From: Strigamia acuminata | Lineage: Eukaryota > Arthropoda > Chilopoda > Geophilomorpha > Linotaeniidae | DNA length: 64,000 bases | Assembly (NCBI GenBank): GCA_949358305.1 | Contig: OX442324.1 | Span: forward strand, 8,157,601 to 8,221,600 | Direction of reading: 5' to 3' | Shown here: in pieces, positions 776-57,021 of the stretch | Position numbering within the stretch: position 1 is the stretch's first letter | How the letters are laid out: each line of letters opens with the position of its first letter | The notes under the pieces: model-generated | What the model was told of the DNA's origin: nothing | Seen by the model: only the letters and a program-made list of their open reading frames with translations | Database searches by the model: none | Position numbers and translations under genes: made by a program

Positions 776-2011
776 CTCTGTAAGTCCAGCGTGAGTTTCG
801 TGGCCAAATTCGAACTCAGCCCGAAATTCTGACCAGGAACGCATATTTTCGGCAACCACGGACATCGCGCACGACCCGGGCGGACCGTAGAGACAGAAAC
901 CAGGCATCGACGAACGTCTGAAGTGCGTCGTTTAGCAGCGAAGCCAAGTTCGGGGCGGCAACGACGGAATTATTCGTTTTTGGACGGTTTTCAAGCGATT
1001 TTCAACGCTGGAACCAGAGCGTTTTCATTAAGAACAGTGAATATAATGTACTATTATTATTTTTCGTTATATTTAACAGTGGGAAACTGTTAAATCACGT
1101 CGAGTTGCGTTTACTTCACGAATCCAGTTTTTCGGAAATCCAAGATGGCGGCGCCCGTCTGGTAGTGGTTTGTGCAGCAAATTTACCGTGAATTCGTGGT
1201 TTTTGGATGAGAAAGGACACACACAACAGTAAATATAAGTTGTATGAAGTATTAATGCTCTTTTTGTTTATTTTTGACGTGAATTGCTGCAGATTTCGGC
1301 AATTTCTCCACGTATCAATACGCACGAAGATCGTCGGCAATTTAGCGGCGATTCGACGACGTACGACGTACGTTTCTTCGCGCACACGTTTCGACAACGT
1401 GCTTGGAAGCTCCGTGGACACTCCCAGGAGCATTTATGAACGTGAAACGTTCATATCATCCACTGGAAAAGCCGCAATTTGCACAACGGCAATTGCGAAG
1501 TCGCGAACGATCGCGATTGTGTGCGAGGAAGGAAATTCCGCACACACACGAGCCTGTACCCCGGCGTACTATCGTGCTACGAGGGAGCGACCAGCTGCCA
1601 GCTTGGGGATCGTTTTGCGACGCACAGTCCCGCAAATACACGAATCATCTCAACTTTGCCAACTTCACATCGATTTAAGTGCATTTAGGGGTTCGAAATT
1701 ACTTGTCATTAGTTATTTAAGGTTTTGTTTGGGCCCTTTAGTGTGTTTGGCACCCTCTAGTCAGTCGACTAGTGCCATCCTATTTCTGCACAGGCTTTCC
1801 CTGGCCACCGAGTGTCCCGCGGTCCTAGGAGTCCGGTCGGAACTCGGGGGATACTGTGTAGAGTTTTGCATCTCACTTAGTGAGATTTGTCCTAGGGTGG
1901 ATTGTGATATTTCGCCTAATTTTTGGGGGAATTTACTGTGTCTTCAGATTATTTTTGTGAAAGTGTTTGTGCAAAGTGAATTGTGCTACGGTATTATTTT
2001 GAAATTTGATC
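776..2011 (+). other. Untranslated leader of copia I (about 1.2 kb)
   Basis: The 1236 bases between the primer site and the gag-pol ATG hold no retrotransposon domain. One 276-aa ORF covers 1207-2037 but overlaps the gag start in another frame and has no recognisable motif, so I treat it as chance. An equally long leader occurs in copia H, so a long leader is a shared trait of these lineages. Confidence 0.7.
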
Positions 2012-5000
2012 ATGGCAGCCGGCGATTGGAAATTTGAGGACTTTTCAAAGCCATTCGCCCCTAATATACGTAAACTTGATGGGACGAATTATGAATCGTG
2101 GGCAACCAACATGCAGCTAATTCTAGAGCAGCAAGGCACGTGGAATCACGTGGTGGGCGATGAGCCAGCGTTAACGGCTGCGGCCACACCACGCGAGATA
2201 CGTGACTTTAAAACACGTGAACATAAAGCACGTTCCTCGATTTGTTTAGCTTGCGCAGAAGCGCAAAAGGTTGTTGCTGTTGCTCATGCGACTTCTAAAA
2301 AGGCATGGGACGCATTGAAGGAAGCCTACCAACCCACGACCATGGCTAGACAAGCAAGGCTTAGGAGAGAATTTCTACAAATGAAATTGGCACCCGATGA
2401 GGAAATGGTCGTGTTTACGGCACGTGTAGATAGAAAGGCGGCAGAACTTAAAGACGTTGAAATTGTTTTGGAAGACAAATTTATTGCATTTCAATATTTG
2501 GATTTCTTGGGTCCAGAATGGGAAGGACTCAAGCAACAAATATACCACTGGGACAAAGCCGATTTCACGACGGCAAAAGTGCGTGAAAGGCTTTTAGCGG
2601 AGTACAACCGCACCCACGTGGGATCTTCTGATAGTTCTGCAGTGCCGTCGACAGGAGCTTTTGCTAGTGGACAGCCACAACAACAAGGAAAAGGACTTAT
2701 TTGTTTTAATTGTGGCGGGAGAGGCCATTTCTCACGGGATTGTCCCACCCCGAAGCAACAAGGCTCTGCACCGATGCAGAAAGTGAGCTCGAATGTCGCA
2801 CAGTCGCGCGGCCGTGGTTGTGGACGCGGTCGATCACGTGGCAAGAAGGCTAATCTCAGCGCATCTGAAGAATTGGTGAACTTTTACACGTCGCTTCATC
2901 AAACTGTCGGACAATCTTCGATGCCAGTTGCCTCATTTGTTTCTTCGGGCCACAAAGACATGTCGTGGTACATAGATACCGCCGCGACCGACCACTTTAC
3001 ATTTTGTAAACACGGGTTTATCGATTTCAAACCGCTTACCAATTATACTGTTCGCCTTGGAGAAGGATCCTCCAAGATTGAGGGTGTAGGCAGTATTAGA
3101 CTGGAATCAGCTACTAAGGCTGATGGCCACCCATTTGTATTGCGCAACGTTTTCTATGCGCCAAATTTTTGTAAAAATTTAATCTCGTTGGGGCGAACAG
3201 ACGAAGCTGGTTTCATCACCCGTGTTGCAAATGGGAAATTGGTCGTGTTTAAAGAGAAGATCACCGAGCCAGTACTGACTGCGTGGCGGCAATCAGATAG
3301 AATGTATAAAAGTTCATGTCAGATACCGGCTCTTACTGTAAACACAACTGCAGTTTCGACGCCCTCGAATGCAGTTGCTGTGGGTGATCAATTGACTAAC
3401 ACACTTAATATTGTTGAAAATGCTAATGTTGTTAACCAGAGTGCACTAATTTCTCCAGCGAGTGTGAGCGTAACGCAGCAAGCGAGTGATAGTGCGAAGC
3501 CAGCGTATAGTGAGGTGCTTAAAGCACCGCCGCAAGCGAAAGGGGCAGCGGGTACCGACACGGTCGCGAATTCCACTAACGACTTGGAGTTTTTGCAAGC
3601 AAATACAACGGGGCATGCACTCCAGCAGGAGAAAGCATTAGATATCTCTTACTGGCATGGCCGGATGGGTCATTTTCATACAGCGGGCATTTTAGAAATG
3701 CAGAAGTCCACAGACATTTTTGGTGTTAAAATGGCAAATGGGAAATTGAACCAATGCGACGCATGTATGCGCGCTAAGAAGACTAGGGCCTCTTTTCCTC
3801 CTATTGGAGTTATTGCCACAAAAGACATCTTAGAACTAGTCCATATGGACGTTTGGGGCGCATCTCGAACCAGATCCCTTGGAGGGGGCACTTTTTATTT
3901 AATAATTATAGATGACTTTTCGCGCTATATGTGGATTAGAATTCTTAAGAAGAAAAGTGATGTTCTGGATGTTTTCAAGACGTGGCAACGTGAGATTGAG
4001 AGGCGAACCTCGAGGAAGGTTAAGACAATTAGGACCGACAATGGGGGTGAATTTGTCTCCAGGGCCTGGGATGATTACGCGGGTCAGGAGGGGATAAAGT
4101 GCGAGCGCACTAATGCGTACACCCCCGAGATGAACTCCATTGCCGAGCGTGCAAACCGGACAATTTTAGAGGGGGCACGTGCAATGATGTTTGAAAGTGA
4201 CTTCCCTAAACGATTATGGGGGGAAATGGTGGTCACGATTGTCTACCTTAAAAATCTCCTGCCGCATCCTAAATTGGGCAATAAATCACCATATAATGTA
4301 TTACATGATAAGAAGGTATCTGTTCGACATCTGCGCTGTATCGGGTCAAAGTGCTACGTGCACATCCCTAGCCAACAAAGAAAGAGCAAGCTAGAGGAGA
4401 GGTCTTGGTGTGGGGCCCTAGTGGGTTATAGTACAGAAACTCAGGGTTATAGAGTTTGGGACCCCATTCGCAATAGTGTACATTCGTCAAAACACGTGAC
4501 TATCAATGAGGAACAGTTTTGGTATGAGAAGAGTACCAATGGGGCTCCTATTCCACACATGAGTAATAATGAGGATTTAGTCCCTGACCTAATGGGAGAT
4601 GATTCCGATGAAGAGATTCTAACCACGGGTCCCCCAGTACCTCAAGAGGAAATCCCAGCCAAACGGCCTATAAGCCCACATAATGAGATATTTAATCTGA
4701 TACCGGATAATTTGGTTTTACCAATAGTGGCGCCACCACTACCAGATACCCCAAAATCTTTGAAGGGACCCCAACCTAAGCCAAAGCTGATTGAATTTGA
4801 GCCTAGATTTGATTATGTAGATGAATATGAGGACGAAGAGTTGTTTCAAGAAGCACTGTTGGCTTCTCCTAATGTAAGAGGGGGTCAACAACAAGTTGCT
4901 GCGGGAGGGGTACCTTTATTGAAACTAGACATGAATTTATGGCAAGTGAAAGGATACGTGCGCTTGACAGGCAGGGATGCCGGTGTGAAATATGCTCACT

Positions 5001-6694
5001 ACATCGCACCCGACAAAACACGTATCAGAAGCCGAGTAGAAGCATTGCGCTGGTGTGAGAACACCGGACACGAGTATGATCCGGAACTTTTTGACTTCAC
5101 GGGCAAGTCCCTCGACCAAGAAGTTCCCAATCCCTTTGCAATGTTTTGCGCATTAGAACCAAACACCTATGAAGAGGCCATACAGAGTCAATACAAAGAG
5201 GATTGGAAAAGCGCAATGCAAGAGGAGGTTGACATTTTTCAAGAGAGAAAAGTTTATGAAGAAGTCGATTGTCAAGCCAACCAACCTCTGTTAGGGAGCA
5301 AGTGGATATACAAGCTCAAAAGGGACGATACAGGGACAATTAAACGTCACCGAGCTAGGCTCGTGGCCCAGGGCTTCAAACAGCGTCCTGGGATTGATTA
5401 CAACGAGGTTTTCTCCCCCGTTGTAAATTTTGTGTTAGTCCTTGTATTCTTTTGTATGCTCGTGATCCTCATGGGTTGGCGGGACGTACATATCGACATC
5501 AAAGCGGCCTATCTCTACGGAGATTTGGACGAGCCCCAACTAATGTCCATCCCAAAGGGTTTCCAAACAGCTGAGAACGCTGGAAAGTGTTGGCGACTGG
5601 TGAAAGCATTATATGGGCTTCACCAGTCGGGAAGAATGTGGTTTGAAAAGCTACATGAAAAGCTTTTGGAAATAGGGTTCCGACCGGTTCCTGGTTTCAA
5701 TTGTGTCTACACAATGGACCGGGATGTGGTTTTAATAGTATACGTGGACGATATCGTCGTATTTTCTCGAAATGAGTTTATTGAAACTGACGTACTTTCT
5801 TGGACTGCTAAGTATTTCGAACTGGTAAACCTTGGATCGGTCACCCTACTTTTGGGAATCCAATTTGACAGGTCGAACGGCAAGATTGTTATCCATCAAC
5901 AGAACTATATTCAAAAGCTTTGCAAGCAATTCGGAGTTGATGGTTCCAATCGTGTTCGTTTGCCGGGAGCAGTGGGAACTGAGATTGTTGGAGTTAAGAA
6001 AGATGAAATACCTGAGGTTAAATTCCCGTACCGATCACTGATTGGTAGTTTGTTATTTCTGGCATCGAGAACAAGACCAGACATTCTGTTCTCCACAATT
6101 GTACTTTCACAGTACAACGAGGCCCATTCCCAAAGGCATGTGAACATGCTCATGCAAGTACTCAGGTACTTGAAGACAACAGAGCACTATGGCATCAATT
6201 TGTCCAGATGCAAAAGTGCATTCTTATCAGTCTTTACAGATGCGTCTTACGCAACTGATGTTGAACAGCGGAAGAGTTTCGGGGGCCACATCGTGTTTTT
6301 AGGCGGCATTCCAATTTCTTGGTCATGCCGCAAACAGAAAATGACAACTTTGTCAGTTATGGAGTCAGAGTTTGTTGCCATCGTTGATGGTGTACGAGAA
6401 CTTGTTTGGCTCCGACGTTTTTTCGCTATGCCCATTATGCGCGACTATTTTGGCGATCTAAGACCGTGCGTAATGGCGGACAGCACTGCCGCCATTCAAT
6501 ATAGTAAGAATCGCGTAGAGAATAAGTCAAACAAGCACATCGAGGTGCGCTTTCATTTTCTGCGCGATCTTTACGAGGCGAAAGTGTTTGATATCAAACA
6601 CGTAATGGGCAAGCTCAATACAGCTGACTTACTGACGAAGTGGTTAGCAAGCCCGAGGCTTACACAATTATGCGACAACATTTTCGACATGTAA
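2012..6694 (+). CDS. Copia I gag-pol polyprotein, intact, with MBD-like module
   Basis: A single 1560-aa polyprotein starting at the ATG at 2012; an in-frame TTG six bases earlier is not needed. Domain order: UBN2/DUF4219-type gag; CCHC zinc knuckle at residues 231-244; aspartic protease with Asp-Thr-Ala at 322; integrase with H2C2 zinc finger and catalytic Asp613, Asp676 and Glu712 (D,D,35E); a divergent MBD-like module at about 973-1033; reverse transcriptase with Tyr-Val-Asp-Asp at 1244-1247; and RNase H with its acidic motif (TDASYATD) and MESEF. No stop or frameshift is visible, so the protein could be active. In the MBD-like module the arginines aligned to the two DNA-contact arginines (Arg984, Arg1006) are kept. 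The aromatic pair after DV in MBD2 is replaced by His-Tyr, so methyl specificity is doubtful. Confidence 0.96.
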   Translation: MAAGDWKFEDFSKPFAPNIRKLDGTNYESWATNMQLILEQQGTWNHVVGDEPALTAAATPREIRDFKTREHKARSSICLACAEAQKVVAVAHATSKKAWDALKEAYQPTTMARQARLRREFLQMKLAPDEEMVVFTARVDRKAAELKDVEIVLEDKFIAFQYLDFLGPEWEGLKQQIYHWDKADFTTAKVRERLLAEYNRTHVGSSDSSAVPSTGAFASGQPQQQGKGLICFNCGGRGHFSRDCPTPKQQGSAPMQKVSSNVAQSRGRGCGRGRSRGKKANLSASEELVNFYTSLHQTVGQSSMPVASFVSSGHKDMSWYIDTAATDHFTFCKHGFIDFKPLTNYTVRLGEGSSKIEGVGSIRLESATKADGHPFVLRNVFYAPNFCKNLISLGRTDEAGFITRVANGKLVVFKEKITEPVLTAWRQSDRMYKSSCQIPALTVNTTAVSTPSNAVAVGDQLTNTLNIVENANVVNQSALISPASVSVTQQASDSAKPAYSEVLKAPPQAKGAAGTDTVANSTNDLEFLQANTTGHALQQEKALDISYWHGRMGHFHTAGILEMQKSTDIFGVKMANGKLNQCDACMRAKKTRASFPPIGVIATKDILELVHMDVWGASRTRSLGGGTFYLIIIDDFSRYMWIRILKKKSDVLDVFKTWQREIERRTSRKVKTIRTDNGGEFVSRAWDDYAGQEGIKCERTNAYTPEMNSIAERANRTILEGARAMMFESDFPKRLWGEMVVTIVYLKNLLPHPKLGNKSPYNVLHDKKVSVRHLRCIGSKCYVHIPSQQRKSKLEERSWCGALVGYSTETQGYRVWDPIRNSVHSSKHVTINEEQFWYEKSTNGAPIPHMSNNEDLVPDLMGDDSDEEILTTGPPVPQEEIPAKRPISPHNEIFNLIPDNLVLPIVAPPLPDTPKSLKGPQPKPKLIEFEPRFDYVDEYEDEELFQEALLASPNVRGGQQQVAAGGVPLLKLDMNLWQVKGYVRLTGRDAGVKYAHYIAPDKTRIRSRVEALRWCENTGHEYDPELFDFTGKSLDQEVPNPFAMFCALEPNTYEEAIQSQYKEDWKSAMQEEVDIFQERKVYEEVDCQANQPLLGSKWIYKLKRDDTGTIKRHRARLVAQGFKQRPGIDYNEVFSPVVNFVLVLVFFCMLVILMGWRDVHIDIKAAYLYGDLDEPQLMSIPKGFQTAENAGKCWRLVKALYGLHQSGRMWFEKLHEKLLEIGFRPVPGFNCVYTMDRDVVLIVYVDDIVVFSRNEFIETDVLSWTAKYFELVNLGSVTLLLGIQFDRSNGKIVIHQQNYIQKLCKQFGVDGSNRVRLPGAVGTEIVGVKKDEIPEVKFPYRSLIGSLLFLASRTRPDILFSTIVLSQYNEAHSQRHVNMLMQVLRYLKTTEHYGINLSRCKSAFLSVFTDASYATDVEQRKSFGGHIVFLGGIPISWSCRKQKMTTLSVMESEFVAIVDGVRELVWLRRFFAMPIMRDYFGDLRPCVMADSTAAIQYSKNRVENKSNKHIEVRFHFLRDLYEAKVFDIKHVMGKLNTADLLTKWLASPRLTQLCDNIFDM
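4928..5110 (+). other. MBD-like module inside copia I polyprotein (divergent)
   Basis: Encodes about 60 residues between integrase and RT that align with the MBD/TAM fold: a Trp at 977, an Arg in YVRLTG, an RIRS motif, and the closing FDFTGKS, which resembles FDFRTGK of MBD2/3. It occupies exactly the slot used by the clearer domains of copia H and G. On its own it would be weak; the family alignment carries the call. Confidence 0.65.
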
Positions 6695-6716: not shown

Positions 6717-7239
6717 TGTTGGAAATAAGTTTCTTTTGTAGGCAAATAAGTTGCATGTCCGAGTATGTTTACCTTACCAAGCGTGTTAATTGCGCGATGA
6801 TATCTGCCGCGAGTTTATGGTTTATTGCGCCATTAGTATAACGTGCCTTTAATTGTTCAATGTATTTGTATTACCTGCCCTGAGTTGCGAATTTGTATAA
6901 TACGCAGGAATACTGTACGTGCATTTAAGTGACATTGTTGTTAAATACATTTGTGTATTTATATGCGTTAAGTTTATGTATATTATCTGGCATTTGTAAG
7001 ATTATAAATGCCATGCCAAATGTATTTCCGTATTGTTTGCATTTTACATGATTTGTTCTATGTTCAACATTTGTGTGATCATAAGTCACCTGATCAATGA
7101 TTCTATGCAACATATAAATGATTTGTTCTGTATGCACTCTTAAGTTGAAAACCATGATTAAACATGGCCACCGCCTGTGCGGATTTTTGGCAAAGCCAAA
7201 TATGCTGTTTTGGACTTACACCATCATTTATTTTCCACA
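6717..7239 (+). repeat. 3' LTR of copia I
   Basis: 523 bp, near-identical to the 5' LTR. It is followed by CTCTT (7240-7244), the right copy of the target duplication. An ATG inside this LTR (7164) happens to be in frame with the downstream G pol, so a chimaeric ORF starts in the LTR and runs to 9317. Confidence 0.96.
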
Positions 7240-7244
7240 CTCTT

Positions 7245-9317
7245 GACGGTGAGGCTGTTCCTGATGGCTCCGTTGTGGCTACCGATGAATCCATTGCTGC
7301 AGCGACCATTGCCGGACATGGCCATTTTTCTCCAACCATACGTTCCACGCGTTTACCCCAACTGCGACGTTCGATCTCTTACCCAACTCTTCCATGTCTT
7401 GACGATACGACGGCGATGTCTGTACAGGGTTCTGACTTTGACGACGACCTTCTTGACGAAGCGGCCGCCTTGCCTATTCCCGCTCCGGGTACGCCTAATT
7501 TGGCCCCTTTACGTGCTCTTCATTGCCCTTGGAGTTTTATTGGCGGCGTTTCGCCCTTCAGCGGATGGAGGAGAGAGGAACATCTCCGGAAAGATCAAAT
7601 CCCGGGGAAGATCAAGGTCGACGTTTATTATTATCCGGAACACGGTGTCCGCTTGCGGTTGCAAAACGATATCGCCGCTTATTGTTTCGCACATCGGCTA
7701 CCGTATGACGAGTCTATTTTCTTTTTTGGCAATTTGGAACACCACATGCCCTACGTTCCCCCGTCGCCTCATCGTGTCCTCATGTGTTTTCGGGAACCGG
7801 CCACATATGCCGAAGCGGTTAAATTGCCCGAAGCACCGAAATGGACCGAAGCAATCAACGAGGAGCTTTCTACTTTCAAGAAGCGCGAGGTTTACAAAGA
7901 GGTTCCGCGTCCACCGGATAAGACAGTCCTAGGTTGCAAGTGGATTTTCAAGTTAAAATCGGACGCCACCGGGACAATTCATCGATACCGTGCCCGACTT
8001 GTCGCACAAGGTTTCCGCCAAACAATGGACGTTGATTTCGATGAATTTTTTAGTCCGGTAGTTAACTTCGTGCTTATCCGATTTTTCTTCTGTCTTCTAG
8101 TCGTCTTGTTGGGATGGAGGGATACTCTCGACGTAAAATGTGCCTACCTCTACGGCGACCTCGACCACGAAATCTACATGCGGATTTCCGCCGGTGCCAC
8201 ATGCTCCTCGCCCGACAACGTCTGGTTGTTGACCAAGTCGCTTTACGGTCTTCATCAGTCGGGGCGCATGTGGTACCAAAAGCTTGACGAGACATTGACC
8301 GGACTCGGATTCCAGAAATTTCCGGCTTGTAATTGCGTTTACGCGTTTGGACATTCGGCCATCATGTTAGTTTACGTTGACTACATCGTTTTATTTTACG
8401 CGTCGAAGAACATCCGAGACCGTATTCTTGCGTTGATCATGAGCAAGTTCGAAATCGTCAACCTCGGCCCGATAACCAAGTTGCTCGGAGTGGAATTCGA
8501 GCGTCGTGACGGGAAAGTCTTCATGACTCAACGCAATTACATCGATAAACTCCTCAAAAAGTTTAATGTTTCGTCCGATGCACTCATTAAAGTGCCTGTC
8601 ACACCGGGAACCACGCTCGTGAAAGGCTCGTTGGACAATCTTTCGGATTTTCCGTATCGGTCGCTCATCGGATCGTTACTTTTTCTCGCTTCTCGCACTC
8701 GTCCCGACATCTTGTACTCGGTCATCGCTCTCTCGCAGTACAACAACTGCTACGACCAAAGCCACATTAAGTGTTTGCTTCAAGTTCTTCGATATGTGGC
8801 CAATACGAGTGATTATTCCATCGAACTTTCGAAATGCGATTTGAGTCAACTGTGGGGTTGCACAGACGCCTCTTGGGCCTCCGACATCGCTACATCGAGA
8901 TCATTCGGCGGATACATTGTCTACATCGGAAGTGTGCCCATTGGCTGGAGCTGCAAAAAACAGACCAGCGTTGCCTGCTCCACCATGGAAGCCGAGTTTG
9001 TAGCATTAGTCGAAATCGTCAAAGAATTATACTGGTTGGACAGTATTTATCAAGTATTTCCGCCTTTACATCGATTATCGAAGCCGATCATTTTCTCCGA
9101 TGCCCTCGCCTCGATACAGTTTACGAACAACGACATCGAGAACTCGAAAACGAAACATATTCGAGTGAAGTTTCACTGGCTTCGTGAGTGGCATATTGCC
9201 GGTTGTTTCGAACTCCGCAAGATTCCGGGTGAGATAAATGTATCCGACATTTTCACCAAGTGGCTCAGTTCAGAGCGTCTTCGAAATTTATTATCCCGGA
9301 TTTTCGTCTCAAAGTAA
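7245..9317 (+). CDS. Copia G MBD, reverse transcriptase and RNase H (RT catalytic Asp lost)
   Basis: Continuation of the G polyprotein after the I insertion, open to a stop at 9317. It encodes an acidic linker, an MBD domain (about 7557-7730), then reverse transcriptase (GCKWIFKLK, ARLVAQGF, DVKCAYLYGD, YGLHQSGRMW) and RNase H (TDASWASD, SCKKQ, MEAEF, DIFTKWLS). The catalytic box reads Tyr-Val-Asp-Tyr (near 8371-8382) instead of Tyr-Val-Asp-Asp, so the second metal-binding aspartate is gone and this copy's RT should be inactive. The rest of the frame is well kept, which suggests a recent loss. It shares about 90% of residues by eye with element O over the RNase H. Confidence 0.93.
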   Translation, partial: DGEAVPDGSVVATDESIAAATIAGHGHFSPTIRSTRLPQLRRSISYPTLPCLDDTTAMSVQGSDFDDDLLDEAAALPIPAPGTPNLAPLRALHCPWSFIGGVSPFSGWRREEHLRKDQIPGKIKVDVYYYPEHGVRLRLQNDIAAYCFAHRLPYDESIFFFGNLEHHMPYVPPSPHRVLMCFREPATYAEAVKLPEAPKWTEAINEELSTFKKREVYKEVPRPPDKTVLGCKWIFKLKSDATGTIHRYRARLVAQGFRQTMDVDFDEFFSPVVNFVLIRFFFCLLVVLLGWRDTLDVKCAYLYGDLDHEIYMRISAGATCSSPDNVWLLTKSLYGLHQSGRMWYQKLDETLTGLGFQKFPACNCVYAFGHSAIMLVYVDYIVLFYASKNIRDRILALIMSKFEIVNLGPITKLLGVEFERRDGKVFMTQRNYIDKLLKKFNVSSDALIKVPVTPGTTLVKGSLDNLSDFPYRSLIGSLLFLASRTRPDILYSVIALSQYNNCYDQSHIKCLLQVLRYVANTSDYSIELSKCDLSQLWGCTDASWASDIATSRSFGGYIVYIGSVPIGWSCKKQTSVACSTMEAEFVALVEIVKELYWLDSIYQVFPPLHRLSKPIIFSDALASIQFTNNDIENSKTKHIRVKFHWLREWHIAGCFELRKIPGEINVSDIFTKWLSSERLRNLLSRIFVSK
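7557..7730 (+). other. MBD (methyl-CpG-binding) domain in copia G
   Basis: The encoded segment begins GWRREEHLRK, continues with DVYYYP and RLRLQND, and ends near IFFFG. It matches the MBD/TAM pattern: GW-x-R-E-x-x-R-K, then D-V-Y-Y, then an F/L-R-S/L arginine, then a helix. Tyr at 7626-7628 aligns with the MBD2 tyrosine that reads 5-methylcytosine (Phe in MBD3). Arg at 7587 and 7656 align with the two DNA-contact arginines. Confidence 0.85.
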
Positions 9318-9915: not shown

Positions 9916-10548
9916 GAGCTACACTTTCCTGATGAATTCCTTATTTCGTAGTCGTTTGGCGCTGTGCGTTGAACTATTTCATATGGTCCGCAGAGTGAAT
10001 TCTTTCTGCGGAAGGTTTAAGTTCACGTCAACACTCAGATCAGCCTCATAACCTCGTAAAAGATAATAAGGAGTATATCCAGTTGTTTCATGAACTCCAG
10101 TATTATAAGAAAAAATGAAAAATGGCAAAAATTCATCCTAATCTGTATGATCTTTATTTACATAACACTGTAAACTCTTCGCAAACGTCGCGTTAAACCG
10201 CTCCGTTAATCCGTTGGTTCTTGGATGGTATCCTGAAGTAGTTTTGTGAAGGGATTTGAACAATGCCGATACTTCATTAATCATTTCGTTCCTATATTCG
10301 GTTCCTTTATCACTGAGAATTTCCCGTGGACTTCCTTCTTTGAGAATTACCTCATACACAAGAGTTTTAGCTGCTTCCAACGCTGTACATGCTGGAGCTG
10401 CTCTAGCTGTGACTGCACGCGACAAGTAATCTGTTACGACAAAAACATATTTATTTCCATTGTTTGAAACTGGAAAGCTTCCTAACGTGTCTATACCAAT
10501 CCTCTCGAACGGTCTCGAAATTGTCGACCAAGGTTGCATTAAACCTTT
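9916..10548 (-). pseudogene. Gypsy C integrase core and C-terminal part
   Basis: Reading leftwards from about 10540, the frame encodes the integrase catalytic core homologous to A1/A2: GIDTLGSF with the first Asp, LSDKGTEYRN with the second, and NGLTERFN with the Glu. This runs as a 133-aa ORF to 10138 and then continues with degraded similarity to about 9916. The C-terminal part matches the A1 segment around APNDYEI before the G LTR cuts it. The H2C2 zinc finger and RNase H that should lie upstream are missing and are replaced by copia patch J. Confidence 0.85.
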
Positions 10549-12345
10549 TTGTGGAGTGGTCTGTTAGCTTGCCGGGGATTAGATCGAAAGGACCACTAGA
10601 ACTCCTACACATGGACGTGTGTGGAGCGTTTTCGACAGAAACTCTCTCGGGAAATAAATATTTTCTCACAATCACGGACGACTATTCTCGCTATTCTACC
10701 GTCTACTTGATGAAAAGGAAAGATGAAGTATTCGATTTATTTCAAAAACACGCGAAGAGGATCGAACGACTATTGGGAAAATCGATTCTGGCCATTCGCA
10801 CGGATAATGGCATGGAGTTTTGCTCCAATAAATTCGGTGAATACCTTGAAGAGCAGGGGATTGTCCACGAGCGAACCAATGCGTACACCCCCGCCCAGAA
10901 CGGCGTTTCTGAGAGACTTAACCAAACTTTGGCGAACGGGATGCGTGCTCTCATTTACGACGCGCAGATGGAACATAGATTTTGGGGAGAAGCCATCCTG
11001 ACGTTCAACTATTTGAGGAACAGAATAGCTAAACTTAACTCGGAGAAGACGCCGATGGAGCTGTATTATGGTCGCAAGCCGTCACTCCGACATTTGAGAA
11101 AATTTGGAAGTCTCTGCTTTGTGCAGAAGAGAGTGCGAGACGGCAAAATCGACAACAAAGCATTACATGGAATTATGCTTGGCTATTCTCGAGTTACAAA
11201 GGGCTACAGAATCTGGTTGCCCGACTTCTCCAAGGTCATCGAGACAAGTGACGTGAAGTTTGTTGAAAGCAAGCGCGGAGTTGAAGGCGTGCTGGGCCTA
11301 TCTGATAAATACACGACTTTTATTGACAATCTGGATGACAATTTGGATAATGACAACGATCGTCAGTATTATTCCGACGAGGATGTTAGGCCACCGCTAC
11401 CTCCGGCGCAACCAATTAAGAAAAAGCAAGAAGAGGAATTACCTCAACTGAAATTGAAGTTCAGATTGCCGGAAGAAAAACTTCGACCAAAACCTAATAT
11501 AACAGGAGCTGAAGCAGGAGTAAAATTGCAAGGCGTTTTACCACCACCTGGACAAGCACTTGTGAATCCAGTTCCGACAATTTCTCAACTTGTTTGGAGA
11601 AAGACAGAGAAAACAAGACCGACTGGACACAAGGATTATGAGTACACAATCGACGGATTTGATAAACCGAAATTACGTTCAATACCAGATGTGAAGCGCT
11701 ACTGTGCGGACCATAATCTACGTGTTCCAGACCACCTTTTCGAGGACAAAAGAAAGAAGAAACCCACTGAATCGAATGTGATAACCGATGATATTGATCT
11801 GGATGATGTGGATGAGTTAACACTCGATTTCGAAGCAAATCATCTCGAAGTCTACATACCGACGCGTTTCGAGCAGATAAGCAATTTACCAGAGAAAGAA
11901 GAGTGGAATCAAGCGATGTCTGATGAAATCAGCACAATGCACGAACGCAAAGTATGGGAGTTGGTCCCACCCCCATCCGATACAAAAATCATAGGCTGCA
12001 AGTGGATTTACACTGTGAAACAAGATGACAAAGGAGAAATAGCGCGTTATAAGGCGAGGCTCGTAGCGCAAGGTTTTTCGCAAGTGTACGAGTCCTACGA
12101 GTAGACTTTTTCACCTGTCGTGGATTTCTCAATCGTGCGCTTTATGTTCACGCTTCTCGTTTGTATGCTGAAATGGTCATATGTTCAGGCCGACGTCAAA
12201 TGTGCCTACTTATATGCGAAGCTGCACAAGACTGTGTACATGCGTCAACCTAAAGGATTCGTGTGCCCAGGAAAGGAGAACTTTGTTTGCAAATTACTTC
12301 GAGCAATATACGGGCTGCATCAGTCAGGAAGAGAATGGGGCATCG
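10549..12345 (+). pseudogene. Copia patch J (integrase to mid-RT) with no LTRs, embedded in gypsy C
   Basis: A 1.8-kb plus-strand copia polyprotein fragment. It begins in the integrase just before HMDVCG, passes RTDNGMEF and GVSERLN (D,D,E complete) and the GKGY-type region, then a divergent MBD-like module (about 11592-11760). It enters RT (GCKWIYTVK, ARLVAQGF, DVKCAYLYA, YGLHQSGREW) and stops abruptly. One in-frame TAG at 12102-12104 interrupts an otherwise open frame; translation resumes in the same frame. Neither end has an LTR, primer site or target duplication. Both flanks are opposite-strand gypsy C pol, and about 0.8 kb of gypsy (RNase H and integrase zinc finger) is absent. It therefore looks like a recombination or repair filler, not a transposition. 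Confidence 0.85.
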
Positions 12346-22362: not shown

Positions 22363-22366
22363 ATAC

Positions 22367-33360: not shown

Positions 33361-33589
33361 TGGCCCACATCGCGGCGACGGGACGAGAGGAGCCGTTGCC
33401 TTTCACAGATGACGAGCCGACCAAAGCGTCTTCTTCGGCGGCAGTGATGCAGTTGTCAACAGGTGGACGACGTGGTGTGCAGAGGGGCCGTGGAAGAGCC
33501 AATCAATTTGGTTCACCCGGTACTCCAGGCCCAGGGACCAGTATGCAACGCGGATCGTTTCAGCGACCTTGGCGCGGGCGTCAGGGGCA

Positions 33590-33899
33590 TGTTGTTTTTA
33601 GAAGAGATGAGGCGGGAAAAACAAAATAAACATCGTTTATTTGCAAGTGCAGCTTTGCACACGTAAAGGAAAAATTTACAAGTGATAAAAAAAAACTTAA
33701 AAGGCGATACATAAACTTGGGTTAAACAAAACCCGATAAACGAAATCTAACAAACAAAACAATGTCAAATACGGGATCTCATTTGATCCATACAGAAATC
33801 AATGTTCACTAATTTACAAACTGATAAATATCAAAACAGCAAAATGAACATTGAGAATAAACAGTAAACAATCAATCTCGGGGAATAAAAAGCCCAACA
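33590..33899 (-). repeat. 3' LTR of copia H
   Basis: 310 bp; on the plus strand TGTTGTTTTTAG to CCCAACA. It appears identical to 39909-40218. Confidence 0.96.
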
Positions 33900-34072
33900 A
33901 GAGCCCCCCATTCTCCGAGATAATAAATAAATCTCAGTCGAAAAGAAACACAAAAACCCAAAAACAATATCGATAGTCAATTGGTTGCGGTACATAACAA
34001 GCAGTGATAAAAATCAGAATCAACCAATTGACAAATGCACATAAGCGGGATCCCGAAAAACTATAATCGAAA

Positions 34073-37000
34073 TTACCGAAAGAAATGTTTGCACAAAAAC
34101 TGCAAACGTGCGGGCGAGAAAAACTTCGTAAAAATGTCGGCGGGATTTAAATCGCCAGAAATCTTTCGTAAAACAAAAACGCCCTCGGTAAGCCAATCCC
34201 GCAAAAAGAAATAGCGCACATCGATATGTTTGGTCCGACGATTTTCGATATCATTCCTCGTAAAATAAATCGTAGACAACGAATCAGAAAACATCGTCGG
34301 AGTGGGCAAACGGAAAATTCGGGTCCGATCGATCGCGCCGTGGAGCCAAACGATCTCCTTCGCGCCATCGAGAAGTGCCAAAAACTCGGCTTCCATGATG
34401 CTTAAAGCGCAATAGCGCTGCTTACAGCAGCCCCAGGAGATGGGAACCCCGAAAATCGAAATCGTGTACCCTCCGAAGCTCTTTCTTGTATCTCGGTCCG
34501 AGATCCAAGAAGCATCGGAGTACCCTGACAGGATGTCTCCAGTGACCGCGGAAAGGGAAATCGAATAATTCCGCGTGTTCTTCAAATACTGGAGAACCTG
34601 AAGCAGAAGGGCCACGTGCTTTGAGGTGAAGCACGTGTTGTACTGGGACAACAAAATCACCGGAAAGAGGATATCGGGGCGCGTGCGAGAAGCCAAAAAC
34701 AAAAGCGACCCAATGAGAGAACGGTAAGGGAACTCGTCGTCGTTCAGCACACGTTCTCCCTCTCTAGCGCAATTCACCATTGTGCCAACGGTGATCGGAA
34801 CCCTGCACAGACGCTCGGAGGAAATTCCGAAATCTTCCGCGATCCGATCAATGTAATCGCGTTGATGAATGGAAATATGTCCACCATCGCGATCAAACTG
34901 GACGCCTAACAGCTTCGATACCGGACCAAGATCTGTTATCGTGAAAAATCCACGAAGGGCTTTAACAGTTCGGTCTCGAGGACCGGGTCCTTTGGTGAAT
35001 AACACCATGTCATCGACATAAACCAGGATGACGGCATCGTAAGTGTCGGAAATGAAAACGCCATTCACACCTAGAAGCTTGTGAAAATTAATCTCCAACA
35101 AGACTTCGACGAGACGAAAATTCCATTGTCGCCCGCTCTGATGAAGGCCGTAAAGAGCCTTATGAAGCCGCCACACTTTCCCAGTGTTTTGAGGAGTTTC
35201 CCAGCCCCTGGGAATCCTCATGAAGATGGCTTCATCCAAGTTGCCATAAAGATAGGCACCCTTGACATCAAGGTGTGTGTCTAGCCAGCCTAAAACGACC
35301 ACTAGAAGCACGAAAAATAGGCGTATCAAGACGTAATTGACCACGGGACTGAAAACCTCGGAATAGTCAACTCCGTACTTCTGGCTGAAACCCTGAGCTA
35401 CTAACATCGCCCTGAAACGGCGCACAATGCCTTCTGCATCACGCTTGATGTAGTAGACCCATTTATTCCCCACAATGTTTACATCAGGAGGAGGTTTTTC
35501 AACTTCCTCGTAAACACCTCGCTCACGAAAGAGATCAAGCTCTTCCTCCATGGCTTTCTGCCAATGGACACGGTCGGGGCTAGAAATAGCTTCCTTGTAG
35601 GTGCGAGGAACCTGAGCAAACAAGGAATGCGCGTACCGTGGTGGTTCGGTAGAATAGCAATCCGCAAACGCTTCCTCTTCCGAAGTAGTGGGACTTCGAG
35701 GAAGGGAAACATTAGGATCTACCGGTGGGGGATCAACCATTTGAACTGGCACATTTTGGGTGCGAAAATCAAAAGAGTCACGATCGTATGCCAAACGATT
35801 ATCGACGCAATATCGCTCTACGTCGCCATGACTCCGCAATCTGGTATGATCTGGCGGGAAAAAATACACATCCGTGTGACCCATAGATGCACCAGACTGC
35901 CGAATCACCTCAGAACGAGTCCACTTGCCCCCCACAGCCGGAGAAGCAGGCGGAGGCTGACGCAGTGGCGAGTGAACAGGAGGTGGAGGCAAAGGATGTG
36001 CTCTCAATGGGGGTTGCATAGCAATAGGTGAACCTGGAGGTGGAATTCCAGGAGGTGGAGGTCCTGGAGGTGGAAGTCCAGGAGGAGGCGGAGGAGGAAT
36101 TGTAGGCGGTGGAAGACCACCCACAGGAGGACGCGGAGGAAGTGGAGGAGGAATTGGGTCAGAACCAAAATCCGGCTCGAGCTCCACCGATATCGCACCT
36201 TCATCGGTGATTTCGGTGCCCTCATAAAAACGAGGATGTCCCCACATACATTCCTCATCGAAACGGATATGTTTCGACTCGAAAACTTCTCTGCGCTTAG
36301 GGCACCACACGCGATAACCCCGCGTGCGAAAGGCATAGCCAACCACGACGCCAGTCCAGGCTCGGGATTCGAATTTCGAACCACGGACTTGCTTCGGGAT
36401 GTGCACGAAACACCGTGACCCAATCACCTTAAGGTGTTTGAGTGGAACAGTCTTGCCATACCACAGACAATAGGGGACAAGATTGTTCAGAGACTTATGT
36501 GGGAAGCGGTTCTTCAAATAAATCATAGTAACCGCGAGCTCAGCCCACAGCACTCGAGGCAAAGACGTCGACAAAAAGAAAGAACGCACGCCCTCAAGTA
36601 AGGTGCGGTTAAGGCGTTCCGCGACGCCATTCTGCTCTGGTGTATAGACATTCGTGCGCTGTGCTTTGATGCCGCGCTGGACTAGGAAATTTTCGAAATT
36701 TTTGGAACAAAATTCCATGCCATTATCAGTCCTGACTGCTTTAATGCAGCCAGCCCCCCATAAAACCTCCATCCGAGCATGGAATAGCTTAAAAACCTCG
36801 AAAACTTCCCCCTTCGTTTTCATGGGCACAACAAAGGAGTAACGGGAAAAGTCGTCTACGATCGTCAACAAATAACGAGCGCCACCGATGGATGTGGTAT
36901 TTGAATGACCCCAAACATCCATATGAAGCAAATCTAAAGGCTTCTTGGAAGAAATACCTTCCTTAATGCTTGGAAATGAAGCACGGGTGGATTTGGCGCG

Positions 37001-38590
37001 GGCACACACAGCACATGCTGGCAATGCGGAAGTAGAAATTTCTATTCCGGATGCATTCGGAGATTTCGCCAAGTGACGGATACCGTCGGCATTAAAATGC
37101 CCAAATCTCCGGTGCCAAAGCTCCAAATCAGACAACTTTCCCTTCGGGGGTTTGGGAGAAGAGGTTGAAACAAGTTCCTCGGCAAAAGTGACATGCCGGA
37201 CAGGTGACTGCAAAGTCGACGCAGAAAGAACCTGTTTGGGAACTGGGGCGAATGTAGCCGCAGGAGGCTTCGCAGATGTAAGATCCGCGGGCAAAATATT
37301 CTGAAGGGAATATAAATCACCCTTCAGTTTGGCCGTCAAAAGAAATTGTTTGGCTTTATCATTAGGGTGATAAATGGACATAATACCATTCGCGGCTGTC
37401 AAATGCAGTCCGGCACGGTCGATCTTCGACAAACTCACCAAATTACGCGCGAAAGCAGGGGCATGCAAAACATTATGCATAGTCACGGGAAAATTAGACC
37501 CCCCAGCGCCGCCACGGCCAACACGCAACACCACATCTCCAATACCATCCACTCGAGAACGACCTTCACCTAAAATGATGAAATAATTGGAGACCGGCTT
37601 GTAATTGGTGAAACGATCACGCACTGGACACACATGGTCGGAAGAACCCGAATCGATGAGCCACTCATTCGATGAAGCTGAAGACACATTCGATTCCGAT
37701 CGCGCGAAGAAATTGATCCCGGTCACCACATTCGAAGAAACAGTAGCCGTCTGCGAAGCACCACCACCGCGTCCACGCTTGCGGTTGCGCGAATTCGAGC
37801 GTCGACCACGATTGGCGGATGGAGCGGAAGAGGCAGCGCCTTGGACACGGGGTTTGGGGCACTTGTTCGCGTAGTGTCCCATTTCCTTGCAATTGAAACA
37901 CTGAATTTGCGATAACGGCCGAAAAGGCTTATTCGGCGTACCCGAAGTCGAACTAGTAGACTGCAAACTAGTCGATGATCCCGAATCCGCATTCTTCATC
38001 TTTAAACGATTAAATTCCGAGAGAAGATGGTCGGTGACTGCCTTTAAGGTGAAATCTGCCTTAGACCAATGATAAATGGTCTGTACTGTCGCTTCGTACG
38101 AATCCGGTAAAAAATCCAGAAGTTGATAAGCGACATCCGAATCCGAAAATTTGACATCCAATTCAACCAAAACCGTACGGGCTTTGGTCACGCGGCTTAC
38201 GAAGACTGACATATCTTCATTTGGAAGTAATCGCATCATGAGGAAATCACGGCGAAGTTTCGCAATTCGGGCAAGAGAAGTCGGTTGAAATGTGGCTTTC
38301 AATGCCACCCAGGCGTCGCGAGCGGTGTCCGCAGCGAGAACGATGTCCTGATACTGTGGCTCAACAAATAGGCCAAGCAATGCTTTGGCGCGTTTGGAGC
38401 GGTCATCGTGAAGTTGTTTCCTGGTCTGATCCCACGTATCATCCTTCACGGGAGGTTTTTCGTCAATAAACTGGTCCACGCCTTTCTCCAGTAATAAAAA
38501 CTGGATATTCCTCGACCACGATTCGTAATTGTCCGAATTAAGTCGTGCAATGGAGAAATGATGCGTGGTTGATTTGTCAGATTCAGCCAT
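34073..38590 (-). CDS. Copia H gag-pol polyprotein, intact, with MBD domain
   Basis: 1505 aa from ATG 38590 (MAESDKSTTHHF). Order: UBN2-type gag; CCHC knuckle from residue 231 (CFNCKEMGHYANKC); Arg/Gly-rich stretch; protease Asp-Ser-Gly at 313; integrase with H2C2 and catalytic Asp558, Asp622 and Glu658; a proline-rich linker (about 810-885, many PPP runs); an MBD domain at about 888-944; RT with Tyr-Val-Asp-Asp at 1191-1194; RNase H (YSDASWISD, SIMEAEF, DIFTKFFS). No stop, frameshift or lost catalytic residue is apparent. The MBD sits C-terminal to the integrase, the position that chromodomains occupy in chromoviruses, so a role in target choice is my inference. Confidence 0.97.
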   Translation of the reverse strand: MAESDKSTTHHFSIARLNSDNYESWSRNIQFLLLEKGVDQFIDEKPPVKDDTWDQTRKQLHDDRSKRAKALLGLFVEPQYQDIVLAADTARDAWVALKATFQPTSLARIAKLRRDFLMMRLLPNEDMSVFVSRVTKARTVLVELDVKFSDSDVAYQLLDFLPDSYEATVQTIYHWSKADFTLKAVTDHLLSEFNRLKMKNADSGSSTSLQSTSSTSGTPNKPFRPLSQIQCFNCKEMGHYANKCPKPRVQGAASSAPSANRGRRSNSRNRKRGRGGGASQTATVSSNVVTGINFFARSESNVSSASSNEWLIDSGSSDHVCPVRDRFTNYKPVSNYFIILGEGRSRVDGIGDVVLRVGRGGAGGSNFPVTMHNVLHAPAFARNLVSLSKIDRAGLHLTAANGIMSIYHPNDKAKQFLLTAKLKGDLYSLQNILPADLTSAKPPAATFAPVPKQVLSASTLQSPVRHVTFAEELVSTSSPKPPKGKLSDLELWHRRFGHFNADGIRHLAKSPNASGIEISTSALPACAVCARAKSTRASFPSIKEGISSKKPLDLLHMDVWGHSNTTSIGGARYLLTIVDDFSRYSFVVPMKTKGEVFEVFKLFHARMEVLWGAGCIKAVRTDNGMEFCSKNFENFLVQRGIKAQRTNVYTPEQNGVAERLNRTLLEGVRSFFLSTSLPRVLWAELAVTMIYLKNRFPHKSLNNLVPYCLWYGKTVPLKHLKVIGSRCFVHIPKQVRGSKFESRAWTGVVVGYAFRTRGYRVWCPKRREVFESKHIRFDEECMWGHPRFYEGTEITDEGAISVELEPDFGSDPIPPPLPPRPPVGGLPPPTIPPPPPPGLPPPGPPPPGIPPPGSPIAMQPPLRAHPLPPPPVHSPLRQPPPASPAVGGKWTRSEVIRQSGASMGHTDVYFFPPDHTRLRSHGDVERYCVDNRLAYDRDSFDFRTQNVPVQMVDPPPVDPNVSLPRSPTTSEEEAFADCYSTEPPRYAHSLFAQVPRTYKEAISSPDRVHWQKAMEEELDLFRERGVYEEVEKPPPDVNIVGNKWVYYIKRDAEGIVRRFRAMLVAQGFSQKYGVDYSEVFSPVVNYVLIRLFFVLLVVVLGWLDTHLDVKGAYLYGNLDEAIFMRIPRGWETPQNTGKVWRLHKALYGLHQSGRQWNFRLVEVLLEINFHKLLGVNGVFISDTYDAVILVYVDDMVLFTKGPGPRDRTVKALRGFFTITDLGPVSKLLGVQFDRDGGHISIHQRDYIDRIAEDFGISSERLCRVPITVGTMVNCAREGERVLNDDEFPYRSLIGSLLFLASRTRPDILFPVILLSQYNTCFTSKHVALLLQVLQYLKNTRNYSISLSAVTGDILSGYSDASWISDRDTRKSFGGYTISIFGVPISWGCCKQRYCALSIMEAEFLALLDGAKEIVWLHGAIDRTRIFRLPTPTMFSDSLSTIYFTRNDIENRRTKHIDVRYFFLRDWLTEGVFVLRKISGDLNPADIFTKFFSPARLQFLCKHFFR
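35752..35930 (-). other. MBD (methyl-CpG-binding) domain in copia H
   Basis: Residues 888-944 align end to end with the MBD2/3 domain: KWTRSEVIRQSG, then G-H-T-D-V-Y-F-F, then R-L-R-S, then DVERY, then SFDFRT. Arg897 and Arg919 correspond to the two arginines that contact the CpG guanines. Tyr909 corresponds to the methyl-contacting tyrosine of MBD2 (Phe in MBD3). This is the most canonical copy in the window. Confidence 0.88.
35931..36165 (-). other. Proline-rich linker in copia H
   Basis: Encodes about 75 residues with repeated PPP, PPPPG and GIPPPG units, formin FH1-like in composition. It separates the integrase C-terminus from the MBD domain. Such tracts can bind profilin, SH3 or WW domains, but no specific partner can be inferred from sequence alone. 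Confidence 0.75.
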
Positions 38591-39908
38591 CTCGAAGAGC
38601 GGTAATGAAGAGCGGTGTCACTTTGAGAAATGTCAACCGTGGCAAAGAAAAATGCAATTACGCGCTGGGAACCGATGACGATGTTCGAGGCGGATATCCA
38701 ACGAATGGGCTATACAGGTTACTAGTTAACCCGTCTAAACAATGGCCGTTTAGGAGTTGTCGGGAATTAACGGCCCTGTGGCCCCCGGATACCCCACTGT
38801 CGGGCACGGCAAAATAAATACAATGGTCAAAGTGCAATGACCAAGGCAAGGAATCAAATCTGCAAAAATAATTAAACTTTTGCAGAATTAATCCCAGGAT
38901 CCTACACAGGGTCCCCCAAAAGTTTCACAAAGTTTCACGACTGGGAAGGCGAAAAATATGAAAATAAGAAAACAAAAGAGGCGAATTAAACAAAATTCGC
39001 AGGAGATTCTCTGTTGCGCACACCGGGGTGCGAAAATCCTTCGAAATCGTTGAAAATCCTCGGCAATCGTCAGCCGCTTCGCACACGTCGTGCGGGAATA
39101 ATCCAACCGAAAACAGCTAGAAAAACATATGAAAACATTAGAAATAAGTTCACAAAAGTTCATGTGCTGGGAAATTGTCGAAAAGTTCAAAAAATCGTCG
39201 TACACGGCCGCCTCGTGTTCGTAACCGGGGCGAACACGGAAAAACGACGAAAAATCGACGATAAATGCACAAAATAAATTCGACAGTACTCACAAATGCT
39301 TGTGAAAACAAGCATACAATCCAACAATCCCTGGCACAACACAAAAGCACTAAACACAGTGAAGATCTCGATGAATGTCGACTCGGAAATCCTCGCAATG
39401 CGCACGGGCTTACGGCGCAAAAACGATGAAAATCGGCTCGAAAAAATCAGAAATTACCACGAAAAGTACTCACAATTGTGTGCACAACACGTATACTGCT
39501 AAATACAAGCAGAACTCCGTCGCACTCGGACGAAAACACGGTGAGAAACGTCGAATCGGGCGGCGAAAATCATCGCGAACTCGGTTCATCTCGATCGGGC
39601 GCGTCTGCGGTGATCATCGGCGAAAATCCACGGAAATTCATCGGAAAAAGTACCCACGATTCTTCAACAAGGTTAGGACAGCACCCACGAAAATTTTCTG
39701 CATTAAAATCCGTTGGAAATTGCGGAAAAAGCATCAAATTCGTCGGGTGAGCGGGCGTGAAGAAACGAGGTCGGCCATTGTTCCAGGAATGAGCAATCGA
39801 TGAGCGCGAATGAGGTGGCCGAAAATCACTGTAACAACTCGAAAAAATGGAGTAATTCGACTCAAAAAGCACTCACAGATGATGTTTAGTCCATATCCTC
39901 TGCTACCA
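38591..39908 (-). other. Leader of copia H with initiator-Met primer site
   Basis: 1318 bp between the 5' LTR and the gag-pol ATG. On the minus strand, TGGTAGCAGAGGATATGG (39908-39891) directly follows the LTR; its first 14 bases match the complement of initiator-Met tRNA. The rest has no recognisable coding sequence. Short ORFs on both strands around 39000-39870 have biased composition only. Confidence 0.8.
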
Positions 39909-40218
39909 TGTTGTTTTTAGAAGAGATGAGGCGGGAAAAACAAAATAAACATCGTTTATTTGCAAGTGCAGCTTTGCACACGTAAAGGAAAAATTTACAA
40001 GTGATAAAAAAAAACTTAAAAGGCGATACATAAACTTGGGTTAAACAAAACCCGATAAACGAAATCTAACAAACAAAACAATGTCAAATACGGGATCTCA
40101 TTTGATCCATACAGAAATCAATGTTCACTAATTTACAAACTGATAAATATCAAAACAGCAAAATGAACATTGAGAATAAACAGTAAACAATCAATCTCGG
40201 GGAATAAAAAGCCCAACA
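39909..40218 (-). repeat. 5' LTR of copia H
   Basis: 310 bp, identical by eye to 33590-33899. Gypsy F sequence resumes immediately to the right, after the AGGGGCA duplication. Confidence 0.96.
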
Positions 40219-40225
40219 AGGGGCA

Positions 40226-41499: not shown

Positions 41500-42942
41500 T
41501 TAAGAAAATTTATAGATGTGAGCAATGCCGAGAATGAATTCTAATGGAGTCATTGTCAGCCTATCTGCCACCAGAGACTTTAGTTTGGCCTCTAAAATTT
41601 CCAGGTCTTTTTTCTTCTTTGGTCGTGGAATTCTACGTCTTACCTTTTCAATGGCGATCTCCGTATCAGCCTGCTCTCGCTGAAGCACAACAAACATTCG
41701 GAATAAACCAATGTGTCTGACTCCAATTAGCAGGTTAAATCTAAAATGCCAAGATTCAACAGGATTCGTTGTACGCGGTTGATTCTGTCTACAAACCACA
41801 TATGAACTCCACAACGTGGGTGGGAAAAGGGGTGCAGACCGTAATCCATTTTGCTTGATCTTACCGAAAATGTAATTTTCTTCCCACCACTGTAACAGTT
41901 CTCTGGTTCCTTGACCAAACTGGGGTTTCAATTCTCGGTACGTCTGCTTAATCTTATTAGCAGGTAGAAATGAGAGTGCCGAAAGCTGTCTGCATGCGAG
42001 GTTGAACTGTAAGTCCTTTCGGTATCTGCGCATAAGCCCCTCATGCTGCAGATGTGCGATTATAGTGTGGGCTAAATGAAAGTAACAGGCATGTAATGTG
42101 GTATTCGGAAACGTTTCCTTAGCCGCATTGAGAACTGCTACTTCGAAGTCACTAATGAAGAATTTGGGATCCAGGTCTGTCCCAAACAATTCCTCAATTA
42201 AACTACTAACCTTTCGAAACATCAGCAAGTAAGCTTCTTTGGTTTTTCTCTCCATCAAGCAGAATACCAGCGGTAATATTCGCTTAAATGGGTCTAATAT
42301 CCCAACTTCGGCATGTAGGGTGTACAGCTGCATAAACCGCTCGGGCACACACTTAAACGTCCCATCGCCGAGAATGCTTTTCGCCTTACTAAGATAACGC
42401 AAATTCTCCTCTGTCGTAAACATGATCATCCTGCAACCGGAATCTGTGCGAAGGATGTGCATAAAGCGGTGGCCGTTCAACGTTTCAGAAAACGGTTCGA
42501 TCATTTCCCAAGTCAAATTATTCAAGAACTTCGGTTCCTTAGGTAATTCGGTACGTCGCGATCGCTGCAAGGCTTGACTTAGCGCACTGTTAGTAGGAAG
42601 AGCTAACCGTGCTTCAGCGTCTGATCCAGCTACTGTGGATTGGATTACAACCGAGGGTATCTCGTTCGTTTGCAAGGCACGTGTTTTTATCGCATGTCTG
42701 ATTCGAATTACTTCGGCGCGCGTGTCATCTTCCAAATGGCAATGAGGAGTCGGTTCTTCAAGCTTTTCCGGTTCTGTCACACTGTTATTCGTCTTCATTC
42801 GACCACTACACTTTTTGTACCACTTTTCACATTTCCAGTAAATGCGATCACGACCAGGATTGCGTTTTTCAATTACGTAGGCGTATCCATCATAGCAGAG
42901 TTTTGGTTTGTTTCGATTCGTCTTTCCCATAACGATTTCCAT
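41500..42942 (-). CDS. FLYWCH zinc finger plus MULE transposase (480 aa, intact)
   Basis: Starts at ATG 42942. Residues 6-70 form a FLYWCH-type zinc finger (YDGYAYVIEK, YWKCEKW, KCSGRM, HCHLED), which binds DNA. Residues 185-300 form the MULE transposase core: LGDGTFKCVP with Asp193, ISDFEVAVLNA with Asp265, and the ACYFHLAHT Cys/His motif after it. The C-terminal part (NPVESWHFRFN) is the usual conserved end of this family. No frameshift is seen, so the enzyme may be functional. It lies antisense to gypsy F. Confidence 0.92.
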   Translation of the reverse strand: MEIVMGKTNRNKPKLCYDGYAYVIEKRNPGRDRIYWKCEKWYKKCSGRMKTNNSVTEPEKLEEPTPHCHLEDDTRAEVIRIRHAIKTRALQTNEIPSVVIQSTVAGSDAEARLALPTNSALSQALQRSRRTELPKEPKFLNNLTWEMIEPFSETLNGHRFMHILRTDSGCRMIMFTTEENLRYLSKAKSILGDGTFKCVPERFMQLYTLHAEVGILDPFKRILPLVFCLMERKTKEAYLLMFRKVSSLIEELFGTDLDPKFFISDFEVAVLNAAKETFPNTTLHACYFHLAHTIIAHLQHEGLMRRYRKDLQFNLACRQLSALSFLPANKIKQTYRELKPQFGQGTRELLQWWEENYIFGKIKQNGLRSAPLFPPTLWSSYVVCRQNQPRTTNPVESWHFRFNLLIGVRHIGLFRMFVVLQREQADTEIAIEKVRRRIPRPKKKKDLEILEAKLKSLVADRLTMTPLEFILGIAHIYKFS

Positions 42943-49583: not shown

Positions 49584-49619
49584 TGGCAAATACACCTCAC
49601 TTTGAAATCACTGAACTCT

Positions 49620-54073: not shown

Positions 54074-54144
54074 AGCGTGTAACTCGATAATTTCTAATTT
54101 CCATTTTCTTCTTTTCTTTTTGTTATTTCGTCTTTGTGGCCATT

Positions 54145-57017: not shown

Positions 57018-57021
57018 ATAT

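Follow-up and report, generated by a model that had tools for sequence, protein, structure and literature searches.

In a 64,000-nucleotide stretch of the genome of the arthropod Strigamia acuminata, a centipede (contig OX442324.1, positions 8,157,601 to 8,221,600; hereafter the window), we analysed a copia long terminal repeat (LTR) retrotransposon that carries a methyl-CpG-binding domain (MBD) within its polyprotein. All features of this element lie on the minus strand. The polyprotein, of 1505 amino acids (aa), is encoded by a single open reading frame (ORF), 34073..38590 in the ORF list. Pfam places along it gag (Retrotran_gag_2, residues 30–200; 37991..38503), a CCHC zinc knuckle (residues 230–246; 37853..37903), Pol_BBD (residues 310–394; 37409..37663) with a protease-like DSG motif seen by eye, the integrase core (residues 550–651; 36638..36943), the SH3-like domain of integrase (SH3_retrovirus, residues 711–783; 36242..36460), the MBD (PF01429, residues 887–947; 35750..35932) and reverse transcriptase (RT; RVT_2, residues 1027–1266; 34793..35512). 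The domains follow the copia order of gag, protease, integrase, RT and RNase H; Pfam covers gag, integrase and RT, and the protease motif and RNase H were recognised by eye. A proline-rich linker separates the integrase SH3 domain from the MBD.

The MBD matches PF01429 with E = 9.6e-8 and 32.0 bits (family cut-off in Pfam, 21). Its best match among the sequences of the Protein Data Bank (PDB) is MBD2 (6c1a, E = 4.5e-10), with MBD3 and MBD1 next, and Arg897, Tyr909 and Arg919 of the ORF align with the corresponding Arg, Tyr and Arg of MBD2. The original prediction, made from the letters and the ORF list, had described an MBD2/3-like domain next to the integrase of an intact copia element with identical LTRs and had named these three residues. 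The domain lies between integrase and RT, the PF01429 comparison that it proposed proved significant and above the cut-off, and counting along the ORF finds the residues at the positions named. A PF01429 search of the genome (237,517,015 bases in 157 contigs) gave 1092 loose candidates, of which the best 150 were scored. Each of these exceeded the cut-off, and most lie within ORFs longer than 1000 aa. A chance match is excluded, because at least 150 MBD matches exceed the family cut-off, most of them in such long ORFs.

The uninterrupted ORF is framed by a 314-nucleotide repeat without differences, of which 310 nucleotides, beginning with TG and ending with CA, constitute the LTR, as suggested by other copies (5′ LTR, 39909..40218; 3′ LTR, 33590..33899). 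Immediately after the 5′ LTR lies a putative primer-binding site (39891..39908), which we take to be primed by a tRNA, and a putative polypurine tract (33904..33916) precedes the 3′ LTR, both read from the sequence. The target-site duplication was 5 base pairs (bp), the length typical of copia, in all five other copies of the family examined, one of which was read by eye. In the window copy, a duplication of CCCCT (5′ side, 40219..40223; 3′ side, 33583..33587) can be recognised if two extra nucleotides (33588–33589) are taken to remain just outside the 3′ LTR. This extra TG (within window 33583–33590) consists of the same two nucleotides that start the putative primer-binding site, and it is possibly an untrimmed primer-derived end from integration. 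The window element is an intact, young copia LTR retrotransposon. The chromosome table of the S. acuminata assembly, in the part of the source available to us, gives C12 (9.63 Mb) as the X and C13 (10.34 Mb) as the Y chromosome (PMC10556566), and the window would lie on the X.

MBD-bearing copia elements form a single clade

Around PF01429 matches we examined 21 loci (L009–L029). The MBD lies inside an ORF of at least 1453 aa in 20 of them (L009–L028). An LTR-like repeat pair, 99.57–100% identical, accompanies 17 of these 20; none was found in L009, L016 and L023. The last locus, L029 (C3:20309085-20309201, 35 bits), holds a short MBD-like stretch with no long copia ORF around it, and this may represent an exon from a different MBD gene of the host. 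In an RVT_2 search of the genome, with the best 150 of 2633 loose candidates scored, none of eight loci picked from the scored matches had an MBD between integrase and RT. Among 51 database proteins matching the query region, two (P0001 and P0002) have an MBD at the same place.

Three further copia ORFs in the window, all on the plus strand, belong to this set. The ORF at 2006..6694, flanked by LTR-like repeats at 234–756 and 6717–7239, contains an MBD that scores slightly below the Pfam cut-off (E = 3.3e-4, 20.7 bits) and is altered at its Asp and Tyr positions. A partial ORF at 7164..9317 has an MBD (E = 5.8e-5) and RVT_2, and the ORF at 10464..12104 has, between its integrase and its RT, an MBD-like segment that is degenerate and falls below Pfam reporting at E 0.001.

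We built a tree from the integrase and RT segments of 51 distinct rows, 28 with and 23 without an MBD, after excising the MBD from its bearers. A single branch (support 100/99) separates all 28 bearers, many of them near-copies of one another, from the MBD-less rows, and several MBD-less rows and the window ORF at 10464 are long-branched. The simplest reading of this tree is that the MBD was captured once by a copia lineage.

Ratios of nonsynonymous to synonymous change (dN/dS) indicate that the MBD is under purifying selection and has been maintained over all. Between the window element and its close relative L020, the ratio is 0.12 for the MBD, 0.05 for RT and 0.24 for the linker. Three subfamilies with Val at the position of Tyr909 give pairwise MBD ratios of 0.03, 0.05 and 0.09, and linker ratios of 0.20–0.29, at silent divergences that are near saturation for these pairs and saturated for L010/L021. 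In the window/L020 pair, silent divergence in the MBD (pS 0.246 over 64 codons) exceeds that of the whole ORF (0.097), perhaps owing to exchange between families.

The methyl-sensing tyrosine is lost in a nested clade

The Tyr at position 909 is the residue with a role in methyl sensing. Of 38 MBD sequences, 25 are distinct, and in these we compared the residues that make the contacts. The Tyr position is occupied by Tyr in 12, Ile in five, Val in four, Glu in two, and His and Trp in one each, so that Tyr is absent from 13 of the 25. The second Arg is kept in 24 (Lys in one), and Asp is found at its position in 24. The first Arg is present in 20; the remaining five are truncated or out of register there, and among these five the window ORFs at 7164 and 10464 align an Arg once more context is given. 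The Ile, Val, Trp and His types make up one nested clade in the integrase and RT tree (support 100/100).

Of the 20 sampled loci, 19 carry Ile, Val or Trp at this position of the main ORF and one, L020, carries Tyr; these proportions are not a census, because sampling started from the highest MBD scores. The window element keeps Tyr together with both contact arginines. The only host MBD2/3 locus found (L038, C5:5733200-5737400) has Phe at this position when its two exons are read together, and mammalian MBD3 has Phe there as well.

MBD bearers occupy CpG-rich sites

We compared the 200-bp left flanks of 16 Tyr-less and 8 Tyr-bearing MBD copies, taking as control 20 copies from a single copia family that lacks the MBD. 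Flank GC content was 0.486 for the Tyr-less, 0.515 for the Tyr-bearing and 0.362 for the control copies, with 6.88, 8.29 and 3.79 CpG per 100 bp, respectively. CpG density differed from the control in both groups (Tyr-less, p = 0.0011; Tyr-bearing, p = 0.0027), and no difference was found between the 16 Tyr-less and the 8 Tyr-bearing sites (p = 0.22). The difference from the control persists after dropping sites with recognisable retroelement coding sequence (15 sites, p = 0.0007). By reading, three Tyr-less loci (L018, L022 and L027) have no clean 5-bp duplication; the 13 Tyr-less sites with a readable one have a mean of 6.88 CpG per 100 bp (p = 0.0015). Excluding L020, which is flanked by a tandem repeat, gives 7.68 CpG per 100 bp for the Tyr-bearing sites (n = 7, p = 0.0068). 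Of the 24 MBD flanks, 9 contained recognisable retroelement coding sequence, as against none of the 20 control flanks, using a library of the window, the MBD loci and the 51 database copia proteins from which same-locus matches were excluded.

On the scale of chromosomes, the median relative distance to the chromosome end was 0.20 for MBD copies and 0.57 for the top-scoring RVT_2 matches (133 of 150 and 147 of 150 matches counted, the rest being on small contigs, plus one weak MBD match that was dropped). The median was 0.25 for an MBD-less gypsy family (141 of 150 matches), 0.32 for a second MBD family, D, that keeps Tyr (131 of 150) and 0.24 for the window family with its LTR relatives (24 sites). 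The scored MBD copia copies and the MBD-less gypsy copies both heap toward one end of several chromosomes, the top RVT_2 matches being spread more evenly, and C10 has none of the scored PF01429 or gypsy-family matches. We rejected chromosome-end clustering as a sign of MBD targeting, since the gypsy family clusters likewise. In a regression that includes distance to the chromosome end (n = 42), the MBD term retained t values of 2.69 for CpG and 3.86 for GC. On this small control, the finer-scale CpG preference looks specific to the MBD clade.

Other elements surround the window copy. Two related gypsy elements (12507–22363 and about 47263–57018) are about 92% alike over 5.4 kb and have LTR-like ends of about 575 nucleotides; their four flanks contain 3.67, 2.67, 5.33 and 0.0 CpG per 100 bp. 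A copia element at 57421–61234 has two ORFs in which Pfam finds no MBD, and an ORF at 41500–42942 combines a MULE transposase domain with a FLYWCH domain. Judged by eye, the window copy sits between two parts of a gypsy-like ORF, and at C9:1256475-1263106 (L051/L052) the MBD codons of another MBD copia are interrupted by a member of the window family.

DNA methylation in the host

A PF00145 search, with all 11 candidates scored, gave four DNMT1-like loci (C1:30368704, C3:32744317, C1:11840161 and C3:35919211) and one DNMT2 locus; a single DNMT1 exon, as well as the DNMT2 exon, was checked against PDB sequences, and the others were assigned by eye. DNMT3 was not recognised among these five loci, and no search aimed at DNMT3 was made. 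In the congener S. maritima, the accessible portions of two papers give a methylation level of 33.18% (PMC8857917) and place 0.758 of 719 transposable elements (TEs) in a highly methylated group (PMC7343188). The observed-to-expected CpG ratio of the window is 1.02. We set aside the idea of an unmethylated host that this ratio could suggest, because of the four DNMT1-like loci, the DNMT2 locus and the methylated TEs of S. maritima. In young copies, CpG loss need not be visible.

A candidate role for the MBD in target choice

The reading that we favour, with a probability of about 0.6, is that a copia lineage uses a domain captured from an animal host to tether itself to CpG-dense, often methylated DNA. 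The lineage would have captured an MBD2/3-type methyl-CpG-binding domain from that host. Because the MBD stands behind the integrase SH3 domain and the proline-rich linker, it most probably stays with the portion of the polyprotein that contains integrase. Once released with integrase, it may anchor the pre-integration complex at CpG-dense DNA, which is often methylated, a step that might in some measure depend on methylation. Fresh insertions would in that case fall chiefly in CpG-rich stretches, among them the bodies of other retroelements. The CpG-rich sites of the MBD bearers fit such a targeting role.

Several observations weigh against it. The MBD is less clearly constrained in L010/L019 (dN/dS 0.16, linker 0.23) and in L012/L021 (0.18, linker 0.34). 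The flank comparison uses one MBD-less family, whose target duplications were unchecked, and a TE library partly drawn from the MBD loci themselves; in it, the effects of GC and CpG are inseparable. Chromosome-end bias is not specific to the MBD, as it is shared by a gypsy family that has none. Since the MBD tracks one clade, another inherited trait, such as integrase, could cause the site bias. Tyr-less families have the same site bias as Tyr-bearing ones, and methyl reading is therefore unnecessary for it.

This last point leads to the strongest alternative, which concerns the nested Tyr-less clade: there the MBD could act as a CpG reader independent of methylation, Tyr being gone, the two guanine-contacting arginines apparently kept under purifying selection and the sites still CpG-rich. 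Because both arginines remain, such an element would follow CpG density. The variation at the Tyr position beside a nearly invariant second Arg and Asp (24 of 25 each), the single origin of the Ile, Val, Trp and His types, the low Val-type ratios (0.03–0.09) and the equal CpG density of the two kinds of site all point this way. On the other side, methyl sensing could be restored by other residues, the like composition of the sites may stem from something besides the MBD, the Tyr-bearing sites compared number only 8, the Ile-type pair L010/L019 is less constrained and the window element retains its Tyr. We regard this alternative as possible, though well short of an even chance. Sister families that differ in the presence of this Tyr allow a direct test of whether methylation or mere CpG density is the guide.

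Somewhat less probable, to our minds, is that integrase itself favours the CpG-rich sites, or that copies are selectively retained where retroelements form GC-rich heaps, with the MBD adding only general DNA affinity. The chromosome-end bias held in common with MBD-less gypsy and the restriction of the MBD to one clade, and hence one integrase lineage, would agree with this explanation. It accounts less well for the CpG-poorer surroundings of the gypsy copies in the window and for a site bias that survives correction for chromosome position; moreover, the bias is present in copies with near-identical repeat pairs (17 of 20 loci), which leave little time for selective loss. That the MBD instead counters silencing, by covering methylated copies or competing with host MBD2/3, and has little role in target choice is improbable: a host MBD2/3 locus, the methylation of most S. 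maritima TEs (PMC7343188, in the part available) and the selection on the MBD would suit it, but the MBD adjoins integrase in the polyprotein rather than forming a separate ORF, and a CpG-rich site bias is not what it predicts.

The interpretation that accompanied the original prediction, that the polyprotein may read DNA methylation to choose or bind its target as a copia counterpart of chromoviral targeting, is partly supported. Its targeting component is in keeping with an MBD that is conserved by selection and with bearers that lie in CpG-rich DNA; its methylation-reading component finds no support in CpG density, by which Tyr-less and Tyr-bearing sites could not be told apart.

Comparison with known systems

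By sequence, the window domain matches animal MBD2 and MBD3, with the arginines and Asp kept. It differs from the host MBD2/3 in having Tyr where the latter has Phe, and Pfam reports no MBD_C domain in the window element. Chromoviruses, which are gypsy elements, carry a chromatin-reading chromodomain beside integrase that may direct insertion. The window element resembles them in having a chromatin-reading domain that adjoins integrase, but superfamily and domain are different, the MBD lying between the integrase and RT of a copia element. Retrotransposons with DNA methyltransferases (de Mendoza et al. 2018, as far as that source was available) are likewise retroelements with a captured DNA-methylation gene, although theirs encodes a writer rather than a reader and they belong to other lineages.

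The closest known system is an arthropod retrotransposon family that, according to the accessible part of de Mendoza, Pflueger and Lister (Genome Research 2019, doi 10.1101/gr.243774.118), captured a functionally active MBD; the available text of another paper credits that work with a relatively recent S. maritima TE family that acquired high methylation (PMC7343188). The remark made with the original prediction, that no standard copia domain description known to its author includes an MBD, is therefore outdated as a claim of no precedent, and the window element belongs to a published kind. It shares with that family a copia polyprotein with an MBD, an arthropod host and CpG-dense sites (relative to one control family), and differs in that the copy is in S. 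acuminata. The published family is itself said to be copia, and its MBDs reportedly bind methylated, CpG-dense DNA. To this kind the present analysis adds the single clade of bearers, purifying selection on the MBD, CpG- and GC-rich flanks and a Tyr-less clade at like sites. The element is one more example, from an assembly at chromosome scale, of a captured epigenetic reader that goes together with CpG-rich insertion sites in a retrotransposon.
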